A stretch of 64,000 nucleotides of DNA from Porphyromonas macacae DSM 20710 = JCM 13914 (lineage in GTDB: Bacteria > Bacteroidota > Bacteroidia > Bacteroidales > Porphyromonadaceae): positions 1 to 64,000 of the forward strand of contig NZ_KB904126.1 in NCBI RefSeq assembly GCF_000379945.1, read 5' to 3'. The translations under genes were made by a program, and so were the position numbers. Numbering within the stretch: the stretch's first letter is position 1; each line of letters starts with the position of its first letter. Below are positions 6,891 to 51,652 of the stretch, one piece after another. The notes below the pieces were generated by a model, which saw only the letters and a program-made list of their open reading frames with translations, had not been told where the DNA came from and ran no database searches.

Positions 6891-6942
6891 CACCTCGGAC
6901 TGATAAATACCACCCCCCCCTTTCGTTCAGCTACTTACTTTA

Positions 6943-7539: not shown

Positions 7540-8640
7540 ATGGCAAACAAAAACCTCAAAGAAGCCAAGGCTGCAAAGAACGACGAATTCTACACTCAAT
7601 ATCACGATATTGAGATAGAGATGAATGCATACCTAGAATACAATGAGCATGTTTTCAGAGACAAGACGATTCTCTTACCCTGCGACGACCCCGAATGGAG
7701 TAATTTTACAAGGTTCTTTGTAGCTAAGTTCGAAGAACTTGGGCTGAAGAAGCTCATCAGTACGAGCTTTGCTCAGGAGAGCAAGAATTACCAAACAGAT
7801 TGGCAACCGACCCTTTTTGAAACAGAAGACCCTCGTTTTAATGCAGAGAAAACAGCTGTTTGTGGTAAGATTTTTACGCTCACACATGACACCAACCATA
7901 ACGGGAAAATCGATATAGACGACCTTGAGTGGGAGTATCTGGAGGGGACGGGCGATTTTCGTAGTCCTGAGCTAATGGCACTGAGAGACGAAGCCGACAT
8001 CATTATTACTAATCCCCCGTTTTCACTCTTCCGTGAGTTTTTGGCTTGGATCATGGAGAGCGGCAAGCAGTTTGCCATCATTGGTAATATGAATGCGATT
8101 ACTTACAAGGAAGTGTTTCCTCTAATTAAAGGAAATAAAATCTGGCTGGGGGCGACAGGAAATGGAAAAGATATGGTATTTGCAGTTCCTAAAGGTGCTA
8201 AAGTTGATGAAAAGGATAAGCAAAAGGCAGCTCGGTTAGGGTATATTGGAGACTATACAAGATTAGGTAACTCTTGTTGGTATTCTAACCTTGAACATGG
8301 ACGTCGTCACCAACCTTTAGCCCTTATGACGATGGAAGACAATCTGCGATACAACAAGAAAATGAAGGGTAAGGTGGCTTACGACCAATACGATAACTAT
8401 GATGCTATCGAGGTGTCTTTTACCGATGCAATCCCTTCCGACTATGATGGCGTCATGGGAGTTCCTATATCTTTTTTGGATAAATATTGCCCGGAGCAAT
8501 TTGAAATCTTAGGGTGCACTGAAAGCGAAGGAAAAGGATTTTCTAATGGACTTTGGTGTAAAGAAAGTGGTATTGCACAGCCTCTTGTACAAAGCCAAAG
8601 GGTATATAAACGTCTTTTCATCAAAGCAATATCCGAATGA
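7540..8640 (+). CDS. EcoRI-type DNA adenine methyltransferase with invertible C-terminus
   Basis: A 366-residue enzyme of the EcoRI_methylase family, predicted to transfer a methyl group from SAM to N6 of adenine. Visible motifs are CDDPEWSNFTRFF (residues 48-60, SAM-side signature of the family) and the catalytic NPPF (158-161) in DIIITNPPFSLFREF. An unusual EF-hand-like loop DTNHNGKIDIDD occupies 117-128. The gene ends FEILGCTESEGKGF... with RVYKRLFIKAISE. The DNA encoding FEILG contains a 16-bp sequence repeated in inverted orientation twice downstream, each joined to an alternative C-terminus (see the inverted repeats and cassettes). It is followed after 237 bp by a DUF262/HNH endonuclease. 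The family call is firm; the recognition site is unknown. Confidence 0.9.
   Translation: MANKNLKEAKAAKNDEFYTQYHDIEIEMNAYLEYNEHVFRDKTILLPCDDPEWSNFTRFFVAKFEELGLKKLISTSFAQESKNYQTDWQPTLFETEDPRFNAEKTAVCGKIFTLTHDTNHNGKIDIDDLEWEYLEGTGDFRSPELMALRDEADIIITNPPFSLFREFLAWIMESGKQFAIIGNMNAITYKEVFPLIKGNKIWLGATGNGKDMVFAVPKGAKVDEKDKQKAARLGYIGDYTRLGNSCWYSNLEHGRRHQPLALMTMEDNLRYNKKMKGKVAYDQYDNYDAIEVSFTDAIPSDYDGVMGVPISFLDKYCPEQFEILGCTESEGKGFSNGLWCKESGIAQPLVQSQRVYKRLFIKAISE
8499..8514 (+). repeat. Inversion repeat, copy inside the methyltransferase
   Basis: ATTTGAAATCTTAGGG lies in the codons for FEILG (residues 321-325). Its reverse complement occurs at 8720-8733 (16-bp match including flanks) and at 8834-8849 (14-bp core plus 2 bp on the other side). 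The codon phase is the same in all three copies. Confidence 0.85.
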
Positions 8641-8733
8641 GTATTCTCGCATAGACCTCTTTATTGTAAATGGTGAACCGCCTACCTGGGATAGGATTAT
8701 TTTCTATATATCGGTCTATCCCTAAGATTTCAA
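8621..8733 (-). other. Silent alternative methyltransferase C-terminus, cassette B
   Basis: Read from the inverted repeat at 8733 on the minus strand, in the same phase as the methyltransferase, this encodes FEILGIDRYIENNPIPG..., then IYNKEVYARILIRILL and a TGA at 8623-8621. It resembles the ends of other EcoRI-type methyltransferases (the VYxRxxI motif). It has no start of its own. Its stop overlaps the last 20 bp of the expressed gene on the other strand. Inversion between 8499-8514 and 8720-8733 would place it in frame. Confidence 0.8.
8720..8733 (-). repeat. Inversion repeat, copy B
   Basis: CCCTAAGATTTCAA on the plus strand, the exact reverse complement of the 14-bp core inside the methyltransferase. 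In the reading frame of cassette A the same bases supply a TAG stop (8724-8722), so this site ends cassette A and starts cassette B. Confidence 0.85.
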
Positions 8734-8849
8734 ATAACTTCTTCGTATAAATAGACGTTTAAACACTTCCTTTCCTTTGATGTAGGAACTTCGTCCGTAG
8801 ATGCCGTTAGGATCTTGCTCCACCCCTCTATTACACCCTAAGATTTCAA
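8722..8849 (-). other. Silent alternative methyltransferase C-terminus, cassette A
   Basis: Read from the inverted repeat at 8849 on the minus strand, this encodes VEILGCNRGVEQDPNGIYG..., then GKEVFKRLFIRRSYLKS and a TAG stop lying within repeat copy B. The pattern EILGC...KRLFI matches the expressed C-terminus (FEILGC...YKRLFIK), although the middle differs completely. There is no start codon or promoter. Inversion of 8499-8849 would fuse it in frame to residue 321 of the methyltransferase. Confidence 0.82.
8834..8849 (-). repeat. Inversion repeat, copy A
   Basis: CACCCTAAGATTTCAA on the plus strand, a 16-bp reverse complement of TTGAAATCTTAGGGTG inside the methyltransferase gene. It ends 28 bp before the DUF262/HNH start, so inversion would not damage that gene. 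Confidence 0.85.
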
Positions 8850-8877
8850 CTAAGTAACTAAATACACAATGCAATAA

Positions 8878-10050
8878 ATGAAAACAGAATTACATACCGA
8901 ATGGACAGTAGCCGACATCTGCAAAGGCTTTGTTTACAACGAGCTTGAGGGCAAAGGGCTTTTCGGCTTAGACGGCAAGCTCACAATACAGCCAGAGTAT
9001 CAACGGCATTACATCTATAACGATGGTAAGAAAGATGTTGCGGTGATAAAGTCAATCTTAAGTGCTTACCCCTTGGGCTTGATTTATTTCAATCTCACTT
9101 CCGAGGGGCAGTATGAGGTACTAGACGGGCAGCAGCGCATTACCTCTATCGGGCGTTTTGTAACGGGGAAGTTTGCTATCGAAGATGCCAATGGCAATAT
9201 CCAATACTTCTCGGGCTTACCTGCGGAGCAGCAACAACTCATCTTAGGCTCAAAGCTCTTGGTGTATGTCTGTCAAGGCGAAGAGCGAGAGGTCAAAGAA
9301 TGGTTCAAAACCATCAATATCGTAGGAGTAGCACTCAACGAACAGGAGCTACTCAATGCTATCTACTCGGGGACATTTGTCAATGCAGCGAAACGAATCT
9401 TCAGTAACTCGCAAAATGCCGAGGTACACAAGTGGAGCCACTATATCAAGGGCGATGTCAAGCGACAAGATTATCTAAAGATTGCTCTCGAGTGGGTAAG
9501 TGCAAGCCTGCATAAGACGATCGATGCCTATATGAGTATGCACAGGCACGATGTGGAGATTACAGAGCTAGAGCATTACTTCCGCTCGGTAATCGATTGG
9601 GTTGCCACGATCTTCACCATGACCGAAAAAGAGATGTGTGGTTTGGAATGGGGGCGTCTCTACGAAACATATCACACTACACCCTATGGTATCGATCATA
9701 TCACAGCACGCGTGAAAGCACTCATAGAAGATGAGGCTATCAAGTGTCCTCGTAATATCTATGAATATGTACTAGGAGGAGAGCAAAATACAAGTCTGCT
9801 TGATGTGCGCTTTTTTGACGAAAAGGATAAGAAAGCAGCCTACAAGCGACAGACGGAACGAGCTGAGAAAGAAGGGAAATCGAATTGCCCATTGTGTGCC
9901 ACTGGAGAAAACGCCAATAAAACACGTATTTACAAACTCTCAGAGATGGATGCCGACCATGTAACGGCATGGAGCAAAGGTGGCAGCACAACTCTTGCCA
10001 ACTGCGAAATGCTCTGCAAGACGCATAATAAGTCCAAAGGGAATAAATAA
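8878..10050 (+). CDS. DUF262/HNH endonuclease (GmrSD/BrxU-like restriction protein)
   Basis: A 390-residue protein of two parts. The N-terminal DUF262 domain carries IQPEYQRHY (37-45) and the signature DGQQRITS (83-90), which in GmrS, SspE and BrxU-type proteins belongs to an NTPase/DNA-sensing domain. The C-terminal HNH domain has paired zinc ligands CPLC (337-340) and C...LCKTH (376-383), the catalytic [12 protein letters not shown] (His361) and an Asn at 375. This is a nucleotide-dependent nuclease architecture known from modification-sensing anti-phage systems. Pairing with an adenine methyltransferase suggests a restriction partner. Whether it cuts unmethylated or foreign-modified DNA cannot be told from sequence. 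Confidence 0.85.
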
Positions 10051-10109
10051 ACTGTTTCTCATCTCGTACATATCAGGTGATAATAATATATCTATGGACA
10101 ACAAAAGTA

Positions 10110-10859
10110 ATGTATAAGATGAAAACAACATTTGCAGCAGTCGCACAACTATGGAGTCAGGCGAAGCAACCACTAGTGAAGTATTCGACAATGTGTGCCT
10201 ATCGCCTAACTCTTCGCTCTCATTTGCTACCTCGATTTGGGCAAATGACTCAGATAGCAGAGACCGATGTCCAAAACTTCATTATCGACAAGATAAACAA
10301 AGGGCTGTCCAAGAAAACCGTTCGAGATATCGTTGCCGTACTCAGGGCTATTATCAAGTACGGAGCGAGACAAAATATATTTGAGTCAGAGAATTGGCAG
10401 CTAAGATACCCTACAATCGAGAGCGGAAGCAGGCTACCTATACTGTCACTGAAGCATCAACGCAAGCTGATGACTTACCTCATCGAGCAACCAAACTCTA
10501 GAAATATAGGGATATTACTTTCGCTCTGTACCGGTATGCGCATTGGAGAGGTGTGTGCATTAGAATGGTCTTGTGTGGATTTGTCTCATCGAATACTTCG
10601 GATAAGGCAGACAGTCGCACGCATATATGATTGCGAAAAAGGAGCTACCGAGCAAGTCTTTAGTACTCCCAAAACGAAGCATTCGTTTCGAGAGATTCCT
10701 ATGTCCAGACACCTATTCGAGGCTTTATGTACAGTGAAGAAGCACTCCGTCTCGTCCTTTGTGGTTGGCTCCTCCATCAGTGCTATAGACCCTCGTACCT
10801 ATCGAGATTATTTTACCCGAGTACTCAAGCAACTGCAAATACCACCTATTGTTTTTCAT
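10110..10859 (+). pseudogene. Tyrosine recombinase, first 250 codons (gene split by the 21.4-kb element)
   Basis: Starting at MYKMKTTFAAVAQLW, this reads an N-terminal core-binding domain and the start of the catalytic domain, with the first catalytic arginine in CTGMRIGEVCALEW and a later KTKHSFREIPM strand. At IVFH the family sequence stops and 80 unrelated codons follow. The expected continuation, HGLRHTFATRC... with the catalytic tyrosine, is found at 32277-32456. The two halves share the CAT (His) codon at the break and together give 308 residues, a normal length. In the present arrangement the HxxR and Tyr are not properly encoded, so the protein should be inactive. Its position makes it the best candidate invertase for the methyltransferase switch. 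Confidence 0.85.
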
Positions 10860-11081: not shown

Positions 11082-11981
11082 TTAGAGGCATTTCTTTTTT
11101 AAACGCCTCTCATCTCTATTTAAAAATTTGAAAAATGTTTTTTGATAAAATACATGGTGATTTCTATGTAATAAAAAATGCTCGTTAATATTTTCCAAAA
11201 ATTGGTATGTATCTAATAAAGTATGAAATTGCTTATACCCATACTTATTTTTTCCAAAGGATGAAAGAGCATCGTAAAAAATCAAGGCTAATTCTTCGTC
11301 TGACAATTGTGCTTGTAAAATATTTAAATAACGTTGAATGTCAGTATTCTCGGTTTTATCTTGAACTGCATTCCTTTCTGTTACGACAAAGTTGATCGTA
11401 TTGTAAATATATCTAAAAAAATAGCCTATACTAAAATTGTGCTTTCCAACGAATGAATCAAAAAAATCTAGTATACAGCCTTGAGCCATATCTTTCTCTG
11501 TATCCAATGAATTGCTTGACAGCCTATCCATAATAGTTTCAAAATTATCCTTGTTCTCTTCTTTTGGATAGATTGTGTAATATTCTTTCATTAATCCATA
11601 ATAGTCCCATATCGTTGTAATGTTGGGGGTATTAAAGTGTTGAGCAATGTTTTTATTCACATTATCCCTAACATCATCTAACATTAATAGGAGATTAAAA
11701 TATGTCGTTTCAAAGCGAGATTGCTCTTGAGACTGTTTAGATAATTCAAACTGTTTCCGTTGTTCTCTGAATGTTATGAATAAGAAGATAGTTGCTGTTA
11801 TTGTAAAGAGTATACCAATTGTACCTGAAATAAAACTTCCAAGGTTATTCTTTAGTTGTTCAACAACATAACTATTACTAAACACCTTTTGTGAAATACC
11901 CATATACAAAAAGTATACACATAGGAGTATGCCTGCAACTAAAAAAATAATTGCCATCCAAAACATCAAATTTTTCTTCAT
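11082..11981 (-). CDS. AbiC-like abortive-infection membrane protein
   Basis: A 299-residue protein matching the putative phage abortive infection (putAbiC) family. Two N-terminal transmembrane helices (about 7-29 and 48-70, IFLVAGILLCVYFLYMG and GTIGILFTITATIFLFI) are followed by a short coiled coil EQRKQFELSKQSQEQSRFE. The cytoplasmic helical domain carries the family pattern FETTYFNLLLMLDDV and later YFFRYIYNTINFV. Family members protect against phage by arresting the infected cell; the mechanism is unknown. It starts 1 bp after the stop of the upstream gene, so the two are translationally linked. It lies nearest the left end of the element, a common cargo position. Confidence 0.75.
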   Translation of the reverse strand: MKKNLMFWMAIIFLVAGILLCVYFLYMGISQKVFSNSYVVEQLKNNLGSFISGTIGILFTITATIFLFITFREQRKQFELSKQSQEQSRFETTYFNLLLMLDDVRDNVNKNIAQHFNTPNITTIWDYYGLMKEYYTIYPKEENKDNFETIMDRLSSNSLDTEKDMAQGCILDFFDSFVGKHNFSIGYFFRYIYNTINFVVTERNAVQDKTENTDIQRYLNILQAQLSDEELALIFYDALSSFGKNKYGYKQFHTLLDTYQFLENINEHFLLHRNHHVFYQKTFFKFLNRDERRLKKKCL

Positions 11982-11982
11982 T

Positions 11983-12966
11983 CTAATTATCCTCTTGTAT
12001 TTCCCTTATAATAAATGTTGTCAACAGATGTGCTTGCCTATTAAGCGACTCATAAGTAGGATAATTGTTTGAAGCAAGCTCAACATTGTCTGTTATATCC
12101 ATAAAAGTTCCCAGTTTTTCTATGTCTTTTACTGATAACTGCCTTGCTTGCCCTTCAATTATTACTTCAAATTTAACATCTCCATATTGCACACCTTCAA
12201 TGCTAAAAACATTAGATGAATCAACACGCTGTATTCTATTAAGAAGGCTTCTGATATTAAAGAAATTATTTCTTTTAGCAGTGTAAACAATTTCTGTATT
12301 TCCCACCTCATCATTAGATATTTCATTGTTTGTCATGCGCGAAACTTTGAGATCTTCCTTGTGCACCTGTTCAAAAGTTATCTTCTTTGCCCCTCCTCCT
12401 ATAGAACCAAGATGTTGATTTATAAGTCTTTGTAAAACTAATGGATTGATTTTTAAAACAAAATTGTTTTCATCATCTTCAATAATTCGGGGGGCTAAAT
12501 ATCCTCTCAGTTTACTTTCCAATAAGCTATAGATACCTAGATTCCCAATTCTTTCTAAAAGCAAAAAAGCAACTTTAGAATCTTCAGGAACATAAAAAAG
12601 GAAATAGAAAGGAATAAGAAGAGCTTCATTTACACTCTTGGTATGTGTTGCTTCTCCTGTTAAAACATTAACCATATTTTCTTCTGTTCCGTAATCACCT
12701 GTTTCAATAATTCCAGAGATATACCTTCCGTCAGTAAATAGCAAATCCCTCCCATCTCTTTTCATAATTCGAAAGAATTTTTCTTCATCTCGATTTTGAG
12801 CAACATCTTCATTTACTGAATTATACCTTAAGGTGTTAAACAATTCATTAATAATATCAATAATATCAAATCCATTCATAAAGTCCGAAAGCACTATTCG
12901 GTCATCCCTTTTTCCTTTTCTGTTTATCGATAATTGATAGAGGGCTAAACTAATTTTTCTTGCCAT
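11983..12966 (-). CDS. Unrecognised protein paired with AbiC
   Basis: A 327-residue soluble protein with no signal peptide or transmembrane helix. Mixed alpha/beta composition; a conserved-looking core is LLIPFYFLFYVPEDSKVAFL followed by LERIGNLGIYSLLESKLRGY, the kind of segment seen in uncharacterised phage-defence proteins. The C-terminal third contains beta-strands (DVKFEVIIEGQARQL). I cannot name the family. Tight coupling with the AbiC-like gene (1-bp gap, shared promoter upstream) suggests a two-component defence operon with this as the cytosolic sensor or effector; that is inference. Codon use is AT-rich, like AbiC and unlike the siderophore cargo. Confidence 0.7.
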   Translation of the reverse strand: MARKISLALYQLSINRKGKRDDRIVLSDFMNGFDIIDIINELFNTLRYNSVNEDVAQNRDEEKFFRIMKRDGRDLLFTDGRYISGIIETGDYGTEENMVNVLTGEATHTKSVNEALLIPFYFLFYVPEDSKVAFLLLERIGNLGIYSLLESKLRGYLAPRIIEDDENNFVLKINPLVLQRLINQHLGSIGGGAKKITFEQVHKEDLKVSRMTNNEISNDEVGNTEIVYTAKRNNFFNIRSLLNRIQRVDSSNVFSIEGVQYGDVKFEVIIEGQARQLSVKDIEKLGTFMDITDNVELASNNYPTYESLNRQAHLLTTFIIREIQEDN

Positions 12967-29531: not shown

Positions 29532-30734
29532 TTAGTATTCATTGTTCTTTCGCCTTTCCATCAGCCTGTCCATATCTTCTGAGATCTTCTTCTCCGAAAG
29601 CTTCGCATAATTCTGCGTGCTGCTAATGGAAGCATGCCCCATCATCTTGGCAATGCTTTCCGTACATATACCTTCCGAAATCAAGAACGATCCGAAGCTA
29701 TGCCTTGCTTGATGGTAGGACAGGTTTTCCTTGCGTCCGATGATGACACCCACTTCATGTATCTCAAACCACATCATATCCCTGCTTGGCAAAGGGAAGA
29801 CGGGTTGCGTATCATCTGTCGTGTTGTATAGATTGATAATCTGCTCGGCTATCGGATGCAGGGGAATGAATGACTCTACTTTCGTCTTCCTGCGGTTAAT
29901 CCGTATATAACGTCGTCCCTCGGCCGTCTTTCCCATGTGGTGCGGATAAAGCAATTGTGTATCAACATAGGCAAGCCCCGTAAAACAGGAGAAGATGAAA
30001 GTCCGTCGAGCCAGTTCTTTCAACGGGTCGTTCTGTGGCAATTTAAGTTCCAATAACTGTTTCAGTTCCGCTTTGCTGATGTGCATACGCTTGGCAGGTG
30101 GCTTTTTCTCATATTCGACTTCTTCCAATGGATTGGCTCTGATAATCTCATGGTCGACGGCAAGGTAAACCAATCGGTTCAGCCAACAAAGGCAATGGTT
30201 GGTCTGCGATGCTCCGAAGTTTTTGTATCGTTTCAGATAAACCTTGTATTCCCGTCCGAACTCCTCGGTGATGTCCGAGAAAGCAATGTCGCTCATGCCT
30301 TTTGACTCCAAAAACTCTCGAATATAACTTTGGTAATATCTTGAACTTCTGTATGTGGAGTTTGAGCCTATTTCCTTGGCTCTTACTGCAAGACGTTCTC
30401 GCTCCCTTTCTCCCATCCGGAGTAAATGAATGGGGACTACGACATGTCCCGCAATTTCGTTTTTCAGTAGCTCTGCACTGACAACACCGTATCTCTTGAG
30501 CAGATCCTCATAAAGTCGTTCCGCATTACTGCGGAATTTCTTCAGACGATTGTTTGTCCGAGCATCTGAGGTCTCTGCATTTTTGGCGTTCCATTGTTGG
30601 GGTTTGCAGGAGATGCCCGTGGTGATGACGGTGTTCTTTCCGTCAATGGAAATTCGGCAAAGGACCGAAGTTGTACCATCCACACGTACCTTGTTGCGAT
30701 TGATATAGAATAGTAAAGAAAATGTGCTACGCAT
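29532..30734 (-). CDS. Tyrosine integrase, IntDOT-like (first of two)
   Basis: A 400-residue integrase: an N-terminal arm-binding domain (LLFYINRNKVRVDGTTSVLCR), a SAM-like core-binding domain (about 110-210) and a catalytic domain. Catalytic residues visible are the HxxR in YHQARHSFGSFLIS and the nucleophilic tyrosine in SISSTQNYAKL. As in IntDOT, the box where most family members have the first arginine reads FTGLAYVDTQ. It is one of a tandem pair at the right end of the 21.4-kb element; the two are 32 and 43 percent the kind of pair often found in Bacteroidetes islands only in the general sense that both share this domain order. Confidence 0.9.
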   Translation of the reverse strand: MRSTFSLLFYINRNKVRVDGTTSVLCRISIDGKNTVITTGISCKPQQWNAKNAETSDARTNNRLKKFRSNAERLYEDLLKRYGVVSAELLKNEIAGHVVVPIHLLRMGERERERLAVRAKEIGSNSTYRSSRYYQSYIREFLESKGMSDIAFSDITEEFGREYKVYLKRYKNFGASQTNHCLCWLNRLVYLAVDHEIIRANPLEEVEYEKKPPAKRMHISKAELKQLLELKLPQNDPLKELARRTFIFSCFTGLAYVDTQLLYPHHMGKTAEGRRYIRINRRKTKVESFIPLHPIAEQIINLYNTTDDTQPVFPLPSRDMMWFEIHEVGVIIGRKENLSYHQARHSFGSFLISEGICTESIAKMMGHASISSTQNYAKLSEKKISEDMDRLMERRKNNEY

Positions 30735-30758
30735 AATTCGTTTGTTATTATGGGGTGT

Positions 30759-32009
30759 TTATAATATGAGTTTTAAATCCTTTGTCGCTTCGATATATTT
30801 GTCCATATCCTCGAAGAGTTTCTTTGGGGTAACCTTCGCGTATCTCTGAGTAGTTTGCAGGTTCGAATGTCCCAGCATCTTGCAGATGGTTTCTATGGGC
30901 ACTCCTGCTTCCAGAGTAATCAACGAAGCGAAGGAATGCCTTCCGACGTGGTAGGTCAGGTCTTCCTTGATGTCGGCGAGAACCGCAAGGCATTTCATCA
31001 GGCGACGGAGATTGGGGTGATACAGCATTGGAAAGAGTGTCAGACGGGTATCGTCGTTGTATTTCTCTATCAATTCAAGGGCTTCGGGCAGGAGCTTGAC
31101 ACAGGCTTGAAGTTCGTTTTTCTTGCGACGGTATTTAAGCCATAGACTTCCTTCATCATCCGTGAAGAGATTGTCCCGTGTAACCGATACCGCATCAGCA
31201 TAGGAAGTTCCCGTATAGCAGGCAAAGAGGAAGAGGTCTCTTGCCAAAATATGGGAGGTACGGTGTTCGGGAATGACCAAGTCACGGATTTTCTCAAAGG
31301 ATTCCCGACTTAGGGCTTTCGGTATCTTTTCTTCTTGCTTGGGGAGACTGAAATGAGCGAAAAAGCATTTATCGGCATACCCTTCTTTATAGGCTCTACG
31401 GCATACTTTCTTGATGATGGCAAGGTAGTGTCGGCTGGTCTCTATGGCAAGTCCTTTATCGTCAACAACAAAAGACTGATAGTCGTGAATAAACTGTTCG
31501 GTCAGCTGACCGAAGGCAATGTCCTTGGAGTGGAATTTCTTTTGAACGAACTCCGCCAAGGTTCTTCGGGTGTAGAAATAGGCGGGGTATGTTCCTTTTG
31601 CCCGGTCTATCCCGATACGTTTACGGAGTTCCTCGCAGACGATGTCCGTCATTGCCAGCAAGGTCATCTGTGTTTCGAGGCTTCCTTGAAACAAATTCTT
31701 GACCTCTTCTGCATCAAAATCCATCTTGCGTTCCACCAAGGTGTCAAATGCAGCATGAATGGAAAGCAACAACTTGTCCAATTTGGCATTGACCTCTACG
31801 GCTTCATTGCTTTTGCCGTTCAATCGACTCTCACGGGGATTCCATAAGTCAGGAGTACAGGAGAGTTTGCAACTGAACTGCACCATCGAACGATTGACGG
31901 TAATGCGTCCCATAATCGGGGCTTTGCCCGACTTGTTGGGTCTGCTCTTTTTCAGGTAGAGCAACACCTTGAATTTCTCTATCTTCATACGCTTTAACTT
32001 TATGGGCAA
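30759..32009 (-). CDS. Tyrosine integrase, IntDOT-like (second, nearest the element end)
   Basis: A 416-residue integrase with the same three domains: arm-binding (KVLLYLKKSRPNKSGKAPIM), core-binding (about 110-220) and catalytic. The HxxR is YHVGRHSFASLITLE, the tyrosine lies in LQTTQRYAKVTPK, and the first-arginine box is CYTGTSYADAV. It starts 267 bp from the right junction, where the integrase of a mobile element is expected. Together with the neighbouring integrase (24-bp gap) it would carry out insertion and excision of the element. Confidence 0.9.
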   Translation of the reverse strand: MPIKLKRMKIEKFKVLLYLKKSRPNKSGKAPIMGRITVNRSMVQFSCKLSCTPDLWNPRESRLNGKSNEAVEVNAKLDKLLLSIHAAFDTLVERKMDFDAEEVKNLFQGSLETQMTLLAMTDIVCEELRKRIGIDRAKGTYPAYFYTRRTLAEFVQKKFHSKDIAFGQLTEQFIHDYQSFVVDDKGLAIETSRHYLAIIKKVCRRAYKEGYADKCFFAHFSLPKQEEKIPKALSRESFEKIRDLVIPEHRTSHILARDLFLFACYTGTSYADAVSVTRDNLFTDDEGSLWLKYRRKKNELQACVKLLPEALELIEKYNDDTRLTLFPMLYHPNLRRLMKCLAVLADIKEDLTYHVGRHSFASLITLEAGVPIETICKMLGHSNLQTTQRYAKVTPKKLFEDMDKYIEATKDLKLIL

Positions 32010-32276: not shown

Positions 32277-32456
32277 CATGGACTCAGACATACATTTGCG
32301 ACCCGATGCATAGAATGTCTATGTGACTATAAAACTGTCAGTACAATCCTCGGACATTCCAATGTTTCAACGACACTCAATCTGTATGTACACCCAAACT
32401 TGCAGCAAAAGAAACGTTGCATTGAGAAGATGAATCGGCTTCTTGAGTTAAAATAG
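32277..32456 (+). pseudogene. Tyrosine recombinase, last 59 codons (3-prime part of the split gene)
   Basis: Reads HGLRHTFATRCIE, DYKTVSTILGHSNVSTTLNL and YVHPNLQQKKRC, ending MNRLLELK and TAG. This contains the HxxR and the nucleophilic tyrosine (NLYVHP) of a recombinase, with no start of its own. The protein begins exactly where the 10110-10859 fragment stops (FH shared), giving a 308-residue recombinase. It marks the outer side of the right junction of the 21.4-kb element. Confidence 0.88.
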
Positions 32457-32847: not shown

Positions 32848-33034
32848 ATGGTTTCTTTTATAACGACAAATTTTTCAAAGCCTTATTTCTTTTTGCTCAT
32901 TCCGACATCGACCTGATACCTCCTTATTCCACAGACAACAATAAAGAGTAAACCTATCACATACCAACACTCGATACCAATAGCCGTACATGGAAAATAA
33001 ACACGGAAATCCCATAATCGTGATTGCCGAAAAT

Positions 33035-33136
33035 TCTCTGCCTGATGGTTGAAAATTCTTAGCGCTACGGATTTTCAACGAAGTTAACTTGGATTTTTTT
33101 TCTTTGCCTGAAGAATTTTCAACCATCAAGCAGAGA
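33035..33136 (-). repeat. 102-bp MITE-like element, copy X
   Basis: Terminal arms of 26 bp (beginning TCTCTGCCTGATGGTTG) are inverted with one mismatch around a 50-bp core containing GAAGTTAACTT and a T-run. The same 102-bp element occurs at 51331-51432 in the opposite orientation. It encodes no transposase. A short frame across it (ENSSGKEKKSKLTS..., KNFQPSGREF) recurs in both copies but is probably a by-product of the repeat. Confidence 0.8.
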
Positions 33137-33154
33137 TTTTTTCAGTACACGTCA
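33137..33154 (+). repeat. Interspersed motif, copy 2 (partial)
   Basis: TTTTTTCAGTACACGTCA matches 18 bases of the motif at 6639-6663 and 59859-59883. It is followed by TGTTGAAAAAAG, forming a near-palindrome, and abuts the MITE-like copy X. Confidence 0.5.
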
Positions 33155-51107: not shown

Positions 51108-51330
51108 TAACTATTTTCTAAAAATGCAAACATTACACCTCAAAAAAACAAAGTTTGCGCACTCCGGTATCAAGAACAACAGTCGGTACATTCCGGTTTT
51201 CAAGAGCAACATAGTTTACAATATCAGCAAGGCTCTATCCGGGGAAATCACAGCAGAGAGTATCACGGTTCTCTCTCATTGACAATCACTTACCTTTCAA
51301 CCTCTTTCCAATAACATTTTCTTTGTCAGT

Positions 51331-51432
51331 TCTCTGCCTGACGGTTGAAAATTCTTCAGGCAAAGAAAAAAAATCCAAGTTAACTTCGTCAAAAATCCAT
51401 TGCGCTAAGAATTTTCAACCGTCAGGCAGAGA
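51331..51432 (+). repeat. 102-bp MITE-like element, copy Y
   Basis: Perfect 26-bp terminal inverted arms (starting TCTCTGCCTGACGGTTG) around the reverse complement of the core of copy X (33035-33136). Same length, opposite orientation. Sits between the tRNA-Asn pair and a glycosidase gene. The remaining 51108-51652 holds no other gene. Confidence 0.82.
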
Positions 51433-51652
51433 ATTTCCATCCATCAACGGAAGGTTTTTTGAAATTCCATTTTTCTTTATTTCACATCAAAGAAAAAGCA
51501 ATGTTCCGAACACAATTTGTTCTCAGACAGAAATCCCAAAGCAGTTATCCGTTATGGCAGCAATCAATTTTCTTTTTCTATCTAAACTTATCTCATTATC
51601 TTTATAAATAAGACTCTACAAAATAAATAATTACACAACATAAAGCATCGAC

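Follow-up and report, generated by a model that had tools for sequence, protein, structure and literature searches.

Inversion of DNA is known to switch the specificity of methylation where a separate specificity subunit exists, as with the hsdS genes of type I restriction-modification (PMC4948785, PMC11892184, PMC5903667). In an orthodox type II system such switching should be lethal, the target of the nuclease being fixed, and one argument against a switch there is that, beside a conventional nuclease with its own fixed target, it would endanger the cell. The locus analysed here lies in a 64,000-nucleotide stretch of the genome of Porphyromonas macacae DSM 20710 (positions 1 to 64,000 of contig NZ_KB904126.1, hereafter the window), and it presents a gene for an EcoRI-family adenine methyltransferase followed by two silent alternatives to its own 3' end. 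The question it raises is whether a type II methyltransferase is switched in this way and, if so, how its nuclease accommodates the change.

A two-gene restriction-modification locus

The host genome comprises 2.2 Mb in 31 contigs, and its genus group includes 25 other genomes. The methyltransferase gene (7540–8640, + strand) encodes 366 residues, of which residues 1–321, as far as the sequence PEQF, form a constant body and the remainder a variable C-terminal module. The protein matches PF13651 (E 4.5e-122, 408 bits against a cut-off of 26.4) and the PADLOC model MTase_II (1.5e-89), and has its closest relative in Porphyromonas canoris. It contains the N6-adenine motif NPPF, in which N158, P160 and F161 are invariant among 59 homologues; across the same set the body is constant up to PEQF and the tail varies, with the exit strand kept. 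The next gene (8878–10050, +) encodes a restriction nuclease of 390 residues with GmrSD_N (DUF262) and HNH domains (PF03235 and PF01844), matched over its full length by PADLOC REase_II. The occurrence of MTase_II and REase_II on neighbouring genes meets the criterion for a type II pair, and the two genes are kept together in nearly all loci, also outside Bacteroidota.

Other assignments were considered and rejected. A profile search of the locus revealed only EcoRI_methylase, GmrSD_N-HNH and Phage_integrase domains, and no HsdS, HsdM or HsdR, so that a type I system with an invertible hsdS is excluded. A type III system (Mod/Res) is excluded because both the methyltransferase family and the partner differ, and a GmrSD type IV system because the C-terminal domain of the nuclease matches the HNH family PF01844 and a methyltransferase is paired with it. 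Low E-values obtained for the nuclease against the PDB came from ubiquitin fusions, covered 30 residues and were dismissed as spurious.

The putative recombination core and the silent cassettes

The codons for FEILG in the methyltransferase gene (8499–8514, +) have the sequence ATTTGAAATCTTAGGG, and this gene copy of the putative recombination core is matched at all 16 of 16 positions, in inverted orientation, at 8720–8735 and again, offset by two, at 8834–8849. Each inverted core opens a minus-strand frame with its own different tail. The expressed module (8515–8640, +) reads CTESEGKGF...VYKRLFIKAISE-stop, and occurs at other loci too, either expressed or silent. Silent cassette A (8621–8735, −), which includes the core at 8720–8735, reads FEILGIDRYIENNPIPGRRF...VYARILIRILL-stop; silent cassette B (8722–8850, −), with its core at 8834–8849, reads VEILGCNRGVEQDPN...VFKRLFIRRSYLKS-stop. 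A preliminary description of the locus, made from sequence alone, had claimed three cores with these coordinates and sequences, the inversion of two of them, a shared reading phase, and one expressed and two alternative minus-strand tails. All of these claims held, and the translations are as described. It had missed two overlaps: the end of cassette A (8621–8640) overlaps the expressed tail on the opposite strand, and the end of cassette B, ..YLKS-stop, falls at 8722, within the core copy that belongs to cassette A. One frame of the core TTTGAAATCTTAG gives FEIL(G) and a different frame gives LKS-stop, a double use seen also in Alloprevotella L007 and Prevotella L062. Loci without cassettes encode the FEILG residues with many synonymous codons, and the exact core codons are kept at cassette loci, we suggest, partly because the core is read in two frames.

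Inversion in silico yields uninterrupted methyltransferases of 357 residues (with an IDRYIEN tail) and 362 residues (with a CNRGVEQ tail). The criterion for a shufflon, that inverted repeats connect alternative coding ends in frame, is met, and both this anatomy and its reading frame are directly established. Chance was rejected as the source of the repeats: the window contains three copies of the 14-mer TTGAAATCTTAGGG, whereas 100 shuffles gave an expectation of 0.00. A second copy of the locus was also rejected, as the three occurrences of the 13-bp core in the whole 2.2-Mb genome all lie at the methyltransferase locus. The idea that the cassettes are decayed junk was rejected too, because their frames are open and their counterparts are expressed elsewhere. 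The counterpart of cassette A is the expressed tail of P. canoris L002 (83% identity), and cassette B is closest to one of the silent cassettes in Prevotella MGM2 (L062; 70%). With the exception of the CNRG type, all silent cassettes tested occur elsewhere as expressed tails.

Mirror-image arrangements in related genomes

Among 80 loci with close methyltransferases, silent cassettes were found in P. canoris L002, Alloprevotella L007, P. circumdentaria L012, Prevotella L062 and Bacteroidales L070 and L071, and additionally at L106, L158 and L161. The window and P. canoris are reciprocal: the tail expressed there is silent cassette A here, and the tail silent there is expressed here. Global alignment of the two loci scores −7 as they stand and 268 when one is flipped. 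The same was found for L070 against L158 (54 unflipped, 537 flipped) and for MAG contig C133 against P. canoris (54 and 326). That relatives hold mirror-image arrangements is thereby shown. Variants of the core are common to the copies within one locus (TTTCAATCTTAGG in L106, TTGAAATATTAGGG in G031), as expected if the copies recombine with each other.

Both joins also occur within a single natural population. In the Porphyromonas MAG CAMFNC01, the gene continues into the IDRY tail on one contig; on a second contig the same gene end continues into the CTESEG tail, and IDRY lies silent. The sequence common to the two joins is identical, over 66/66 nt upstream and 87/87 nt of the cassette. In five more MAGs (G026, G028, G029, G030 and G031) the contig bearing the methyltransferase and the contig bearing the nuclease both stop at the core. 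The paired ends share 18 nt in G028, 19 nt in G029 and exactly 55 nt in G030, and the last value would fit an assembler k-mer of 55, an inference supported by the NODE-style contig names. The first 3 kb downstream of the junction hold 18 contig ends, seven of which lie no more than 88 nt from the junction itself. Such breaks point to mixed orientations, since a 14-nt repeat does not by itself break an assembly, whereas two alternative continuations do. There is good evidence, then, that both orientations coexist in natural populations of relatives, which satisfies a further criterion for a shufflon, with the reservation that it comes from assemblies and not from reads.

The preliminary description had proposed that inversion exchanges the C-terminus to give three enzyme forms, and had suggested that related genomes be compared for the other arrangements; it would have been refuted had no genome joined a cassette to the gene, or had no relative shown an inverted orientation. 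That comparison produced the mirror images described above, so neither refuting outcome was obtained, and the proposal is supported by relatives and MAG assemblies. It is not supported by the window genome itself, whose assembly (examined without reads) contains one arrangement only and no inverted form.

In an order-wide sample a true gene-side copy of the core was present in only 3 of 393 genomes, and the system is therefore uncommon. L172, L173 and L155 were discarded as core carriers, being chance matches in unrelated genes. Long gaps between methyltransferase and nuclease at L013, L015, L028, L052, L056 and L066 were examined as possible cassettes and rejected, because other genes occupy them. 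L052 (4857–7120) has a tandem pair of EcoRI-family methyltransferases with different tails before the nuclease. L013 (2345–3760) has a methyltransferase open reading frame of 472 residues with a duplicated end, in which two FEI(V/I)G-type entries and two different tails follow in tandem in a single frame.

The C-terminal module and the DNA target

The exchangeable module comprises some 30–70 residues between two conserved strands, an EILG entry and a V/Y-x-R-x-x-I exit. AlphaFold2 models place it between these strands both in the window form (pLDDT 87, pTM 0.86) and in a Prevotella form (pLDDT 88, pTM 0.84), and in the latter it appears as a confident small unit of helix and strand. In a VIA-align comparison, residues 15–252 resemble the catalytic domains of class I methyltransferases, including M.TaqI (Z 9.5), and the module is not covered; PDB matches likewise span mostly residues 9–328 and not the module. 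No PDB relative of the methyltransferase was found by sequence, and Foldseek gave no match below 1e-3. M.TaqI and the gamma-class adenine methyltransferases carry their recognition domain C-terminally.

The link between module and target rests on EcoRI alone. M.EcoRI (326 residues) is encoded beside R.EcoRI (277 residues) on plasmid NZ_OW967970.1, sizes that agree with PMC4081073. Its tail is KFRKGVDEKDLSINGKCPYFRILI, the protein ending in ELIKFRKGVDEKDLSINGKCPYFRILI, and the silent cassette EILRFRKGNDEKDLCIKGACPYFRILI of Alloprevotella is 74% identical to it. It is likely that the module sets the DNA target, although this is inferred, with no methylome or enzyme data. Exchange of tails is widespread over evolution, and is found also at loci without cassettes. 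One Porphyromonas genome contains an EcoRI-like system (L098, 595–2448) in which a methyltransferase with an M.EcoRI-type tail accompanies a homologue of R.EcoRI, the latter split over two frames with 79% and 71% identity.

The partner nuclease

If the nuclease recognised its own matching site, it might be expected to change with the module. Over 73 loci, the distance between nucleases tracks that between methyltransferase bodies (r 0.73), and once the body is accounted for the residual distance for the module is +0.007, with a permutation standard deviation of 0.0066. Nucleases in pairs of loci with the same module are no closer than those in pairs with different modules, the body again being accounted for, and nucleases 97–98% identical to one another accompany several module types. 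This lack of covariation means either that the module has no part in setting the target or that the target of the nuclease comes from the methyltransferase, and it argues, indirectly, against independent recognition of a matched site by the nuclease. We favour the second explanation as the likely one over a module without a role in targeting; this too is an inference from indirect evidence.

The adjacent recombinase and its interruption

Directly downstream of the nuclease gene lies the N-terminal part of a tyrosine recombinase (10077–10859, +; PF00589), cut immediately after the histidine of ..PPIVFH. The C-terminal remainder (32277–32456, +) reads HGLRHTFATR...LGHSNV...LYVHP, in frame to a stop, and is 84% identical over 57 residues to an intact recombinase of Alloprevotella. 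Between the two parts lies a mobile element of about 21.4 kb (10860–32276) with transport and mobilisation-like genes and tyrosine recombinases of its own (29532–32009, −). Just inside the element are two genes (11082–12966, −), the first of which matches PF16872, a putative phage abortive infection protein; the second gave no Pfam match.

A homologue of the interrupted recombinase is found 3' of the nuclease gene at 8/8 cassette loci and at 0/67 others with enough flank, and a recombinase also follows the nuclease in G027, G028 and G029. It is intact in L007, L062 and L070, and split in the window. A dedicated recombinase encoded nearby, another criterion for a shufflon, is thus present, but the cassette loci group in a single clade (support 100/99), in which the single cassette-less member (L104/L105) likewise lacks the recombinase. 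The pattern therefore amounts to approximately one gain and one joint loss rather than eight independent cases, and the Fisher value of 6e-11 is overstated for this reason. We consider it likely that the adjacent recombinase is the invertase; this is inferred, and dependence of inversion on the recombinase has not been demonstrated. The shared core, at 13–16 bp, is short for a full tyrosine-recombinase site, and arm sites were not identified.

The break in the window recombinase has parallels. In L012 (from 9191) and L071 (from 9505) the left ends of related elements break the recombinase at the same codon, so that the catalytic codons FH|GLRHT are interrupted by related elements in three species. 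In genomes G035 and G038 no close C-terminal remainder of the recombinase was detected elsewhere at E 1e-8. The conserved recombinase motif is possibly the integration site of the element. No other close full-length copy of the recombinase was found in the window genome, and the split in the gene implies that the switch there probably stays locked for as long as the element remains in place and no other recombinase steps in. The P. canoris locus (L002, 7223–9365) has a frameshift in both the nuclease and the recombinase genes, attributable to decay or to sequencing error.

A proposed switch and its rivals

We propose that the locus is a DNA-inversion switch, or shufflon, in a two-gene restriction-modification system, and regard this as likely with the roles of recombinase, target and nuclease included. 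The methyltransferase would consist of a constant catalytic body and an exchangeable C-terminal module, with silent modules stored downstream in the opposite orientation. The recombinase encoded after the nuclease would join the FEILG-encoding core of the gene to the core of a silent cassette; the DNA between the cores would invert, and the methyltransferase would gain the other tail in frame. A new tail would confer another DNA target, so that clonal cells would differ in their methylation pattern, and the constant GmrSD-HNH nuclease, working with the methyltransferase, would follow its specificity. That the switch is active in nature within the clade is likely, on the evidence of assemblies and not of reads. 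A bolder reading, that a GmrSD-HNH nuclease with no target of its own follows the switched module, and that an element inserted in the catalytic codons of the invertase freezes the choice, is offered tentatively, as one that we are slightly more inclined to doubt than to accept.

The alternative that survives best concerns the window strain only and is compatible with a switch at the level of the clade. It holds that the system is dead or locked in this strain, the insertion having fixed one tail, and the evidence does not tip decisively either way. In its favour are the cutting of the recombinase at the conserved H-GLRHT codons by the element of about 21.4 kb, the related elements at the same codon in P. 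circumdentaria (L012) and L071, and the absence of another close full-length recombinase copy from the genome. Against it, the three tails, the nuclease gene and the C-terminal fragment of the recombinase are all open, which means that decay is not advanced, and the element may be able to leave.

A second alternative accepts that the inversion is real but denies that the module sets specificity: it might instead alter the way the enzyme contacts the nuclease, its inhibition by phage proteins, or its activity, as an on/off or evasive device. The nuclease is unchanged whatever the module, as would be expected if the target never changes, and neither structural nor assay data locate the module on DNA. 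We nevertheless consider this unlikely, because the module sits where the C-terminal recognition domain of gamma-class enzymes lies, the EcoRI-type module is found again in Porphyromonas next to a homologue of R.EcoRI, a setting in which the targets must match, and M.EcoRI, of the same architecture, is a complete GAATTC-specific enzyme.

The remaining alternative dispenses with a dedicated switch and sees in the silent ends the leftovers of tail replacement, by ordinary recombination or by horizontal transfer, at the short conserved sequence coding for EILG. It can appeal to the wide evolutionary exchange of tails at cassette-less loci and to the broken recombinase of the window genome, but is very unlikely in view of the exact inverted geometry, the co-variation of cores within a locus, the intact frames, the mirror images and the association of the recombinase with cassette loci, and is contradicted by the identical joins in one MAG and the paired contig ends in five more.

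Relation to known systems

In a search of the open-licence literature, no paper was found to describe inversion in a methyltransferase of the EcoRI family or of any other conventional type II kind, and the novelty inferred for this family in the preliminary description is consistent with that result. Invertible type I hsdS genes, exemplified by cod/SpnIII with PsrA in S. pneumoniae (PMC4948785) and by inverton group 145 of Bacteroidales (PMC11892184), resemble the present locus in that inversion at short repeats swaps DNA for recognition domains between expressed and silent copies, with a tyrosine recombinase nearby and several methylomes as the outcome. Here, however, it is a tail of some 30–70 residues on a single-chain type II methyltransferase that is swapped; a separate S subunit, hsdM and hsdR are all missing, and a GmrSD-HNH nuclease serves as the partner. 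The body of M.EcoRI is homologous to the window enzyme (48% identity over 286 aligned residues) and its tail is one of the interchangeable module types, but in EcoRI the single tail is fixed, the nuclease is a dimer that recognises GAATTC by itself, and there are neither cassettes nor a recombinase.

In the domain movement described in H. pylori (PMC3983042), sequences for recognition domains likewise move and the specificity of methyltransferases changes, by recombination in type I S and type III M genes at flanking repeats or at sequences coding for conserved motifs; an invertible array of silent ends attached to a type II methyltransferase is not part of it. The PglX inversion of Lactobacillus BREX also combines a methyltransferase gene, inverted silent ends and a recombinase. 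BREX differs in requiring brx genes and the large PglX, none of which was detected among the locus proteins tested with Pfam profiles and PADLOC. The GmrSD type IV enzymes (PMC4619093) share the DUF262/GmrSD_N domain and an HNH-type nuclease domain, but they are modification-dependent and consist of GmrS and GmrD (DUF1524), whereas the present nuclease has a PF01844 HNH domain and a paired methyltransferase.

A switch within the EcoRI methyltransferase family suggests that this class of nuclease takes its target from the methyltransferase. The natural modules are very short, one of them resembling the tail of M.EcoRI, and are interchangeable on a common body, a set well suited to mapping how EcoRI-family adenine methyltransferases read DNA. 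The proposed switch would also add a phase-variable methylome to those of oral and gut Bacteroidales.

Other repeats in the window

Upstream of the methyltransferase gene, an intergenic run of about ten C residues (6912–6921) is a possible slippage tract. Similar long inverted repeats are present at 33030–33141 and 51330–51433, with arms of 31 and 34 nt that share TCTCTGCCTGA and GAAAATTCTT; they are likely to represent a small dispersed element, and not an inverton.
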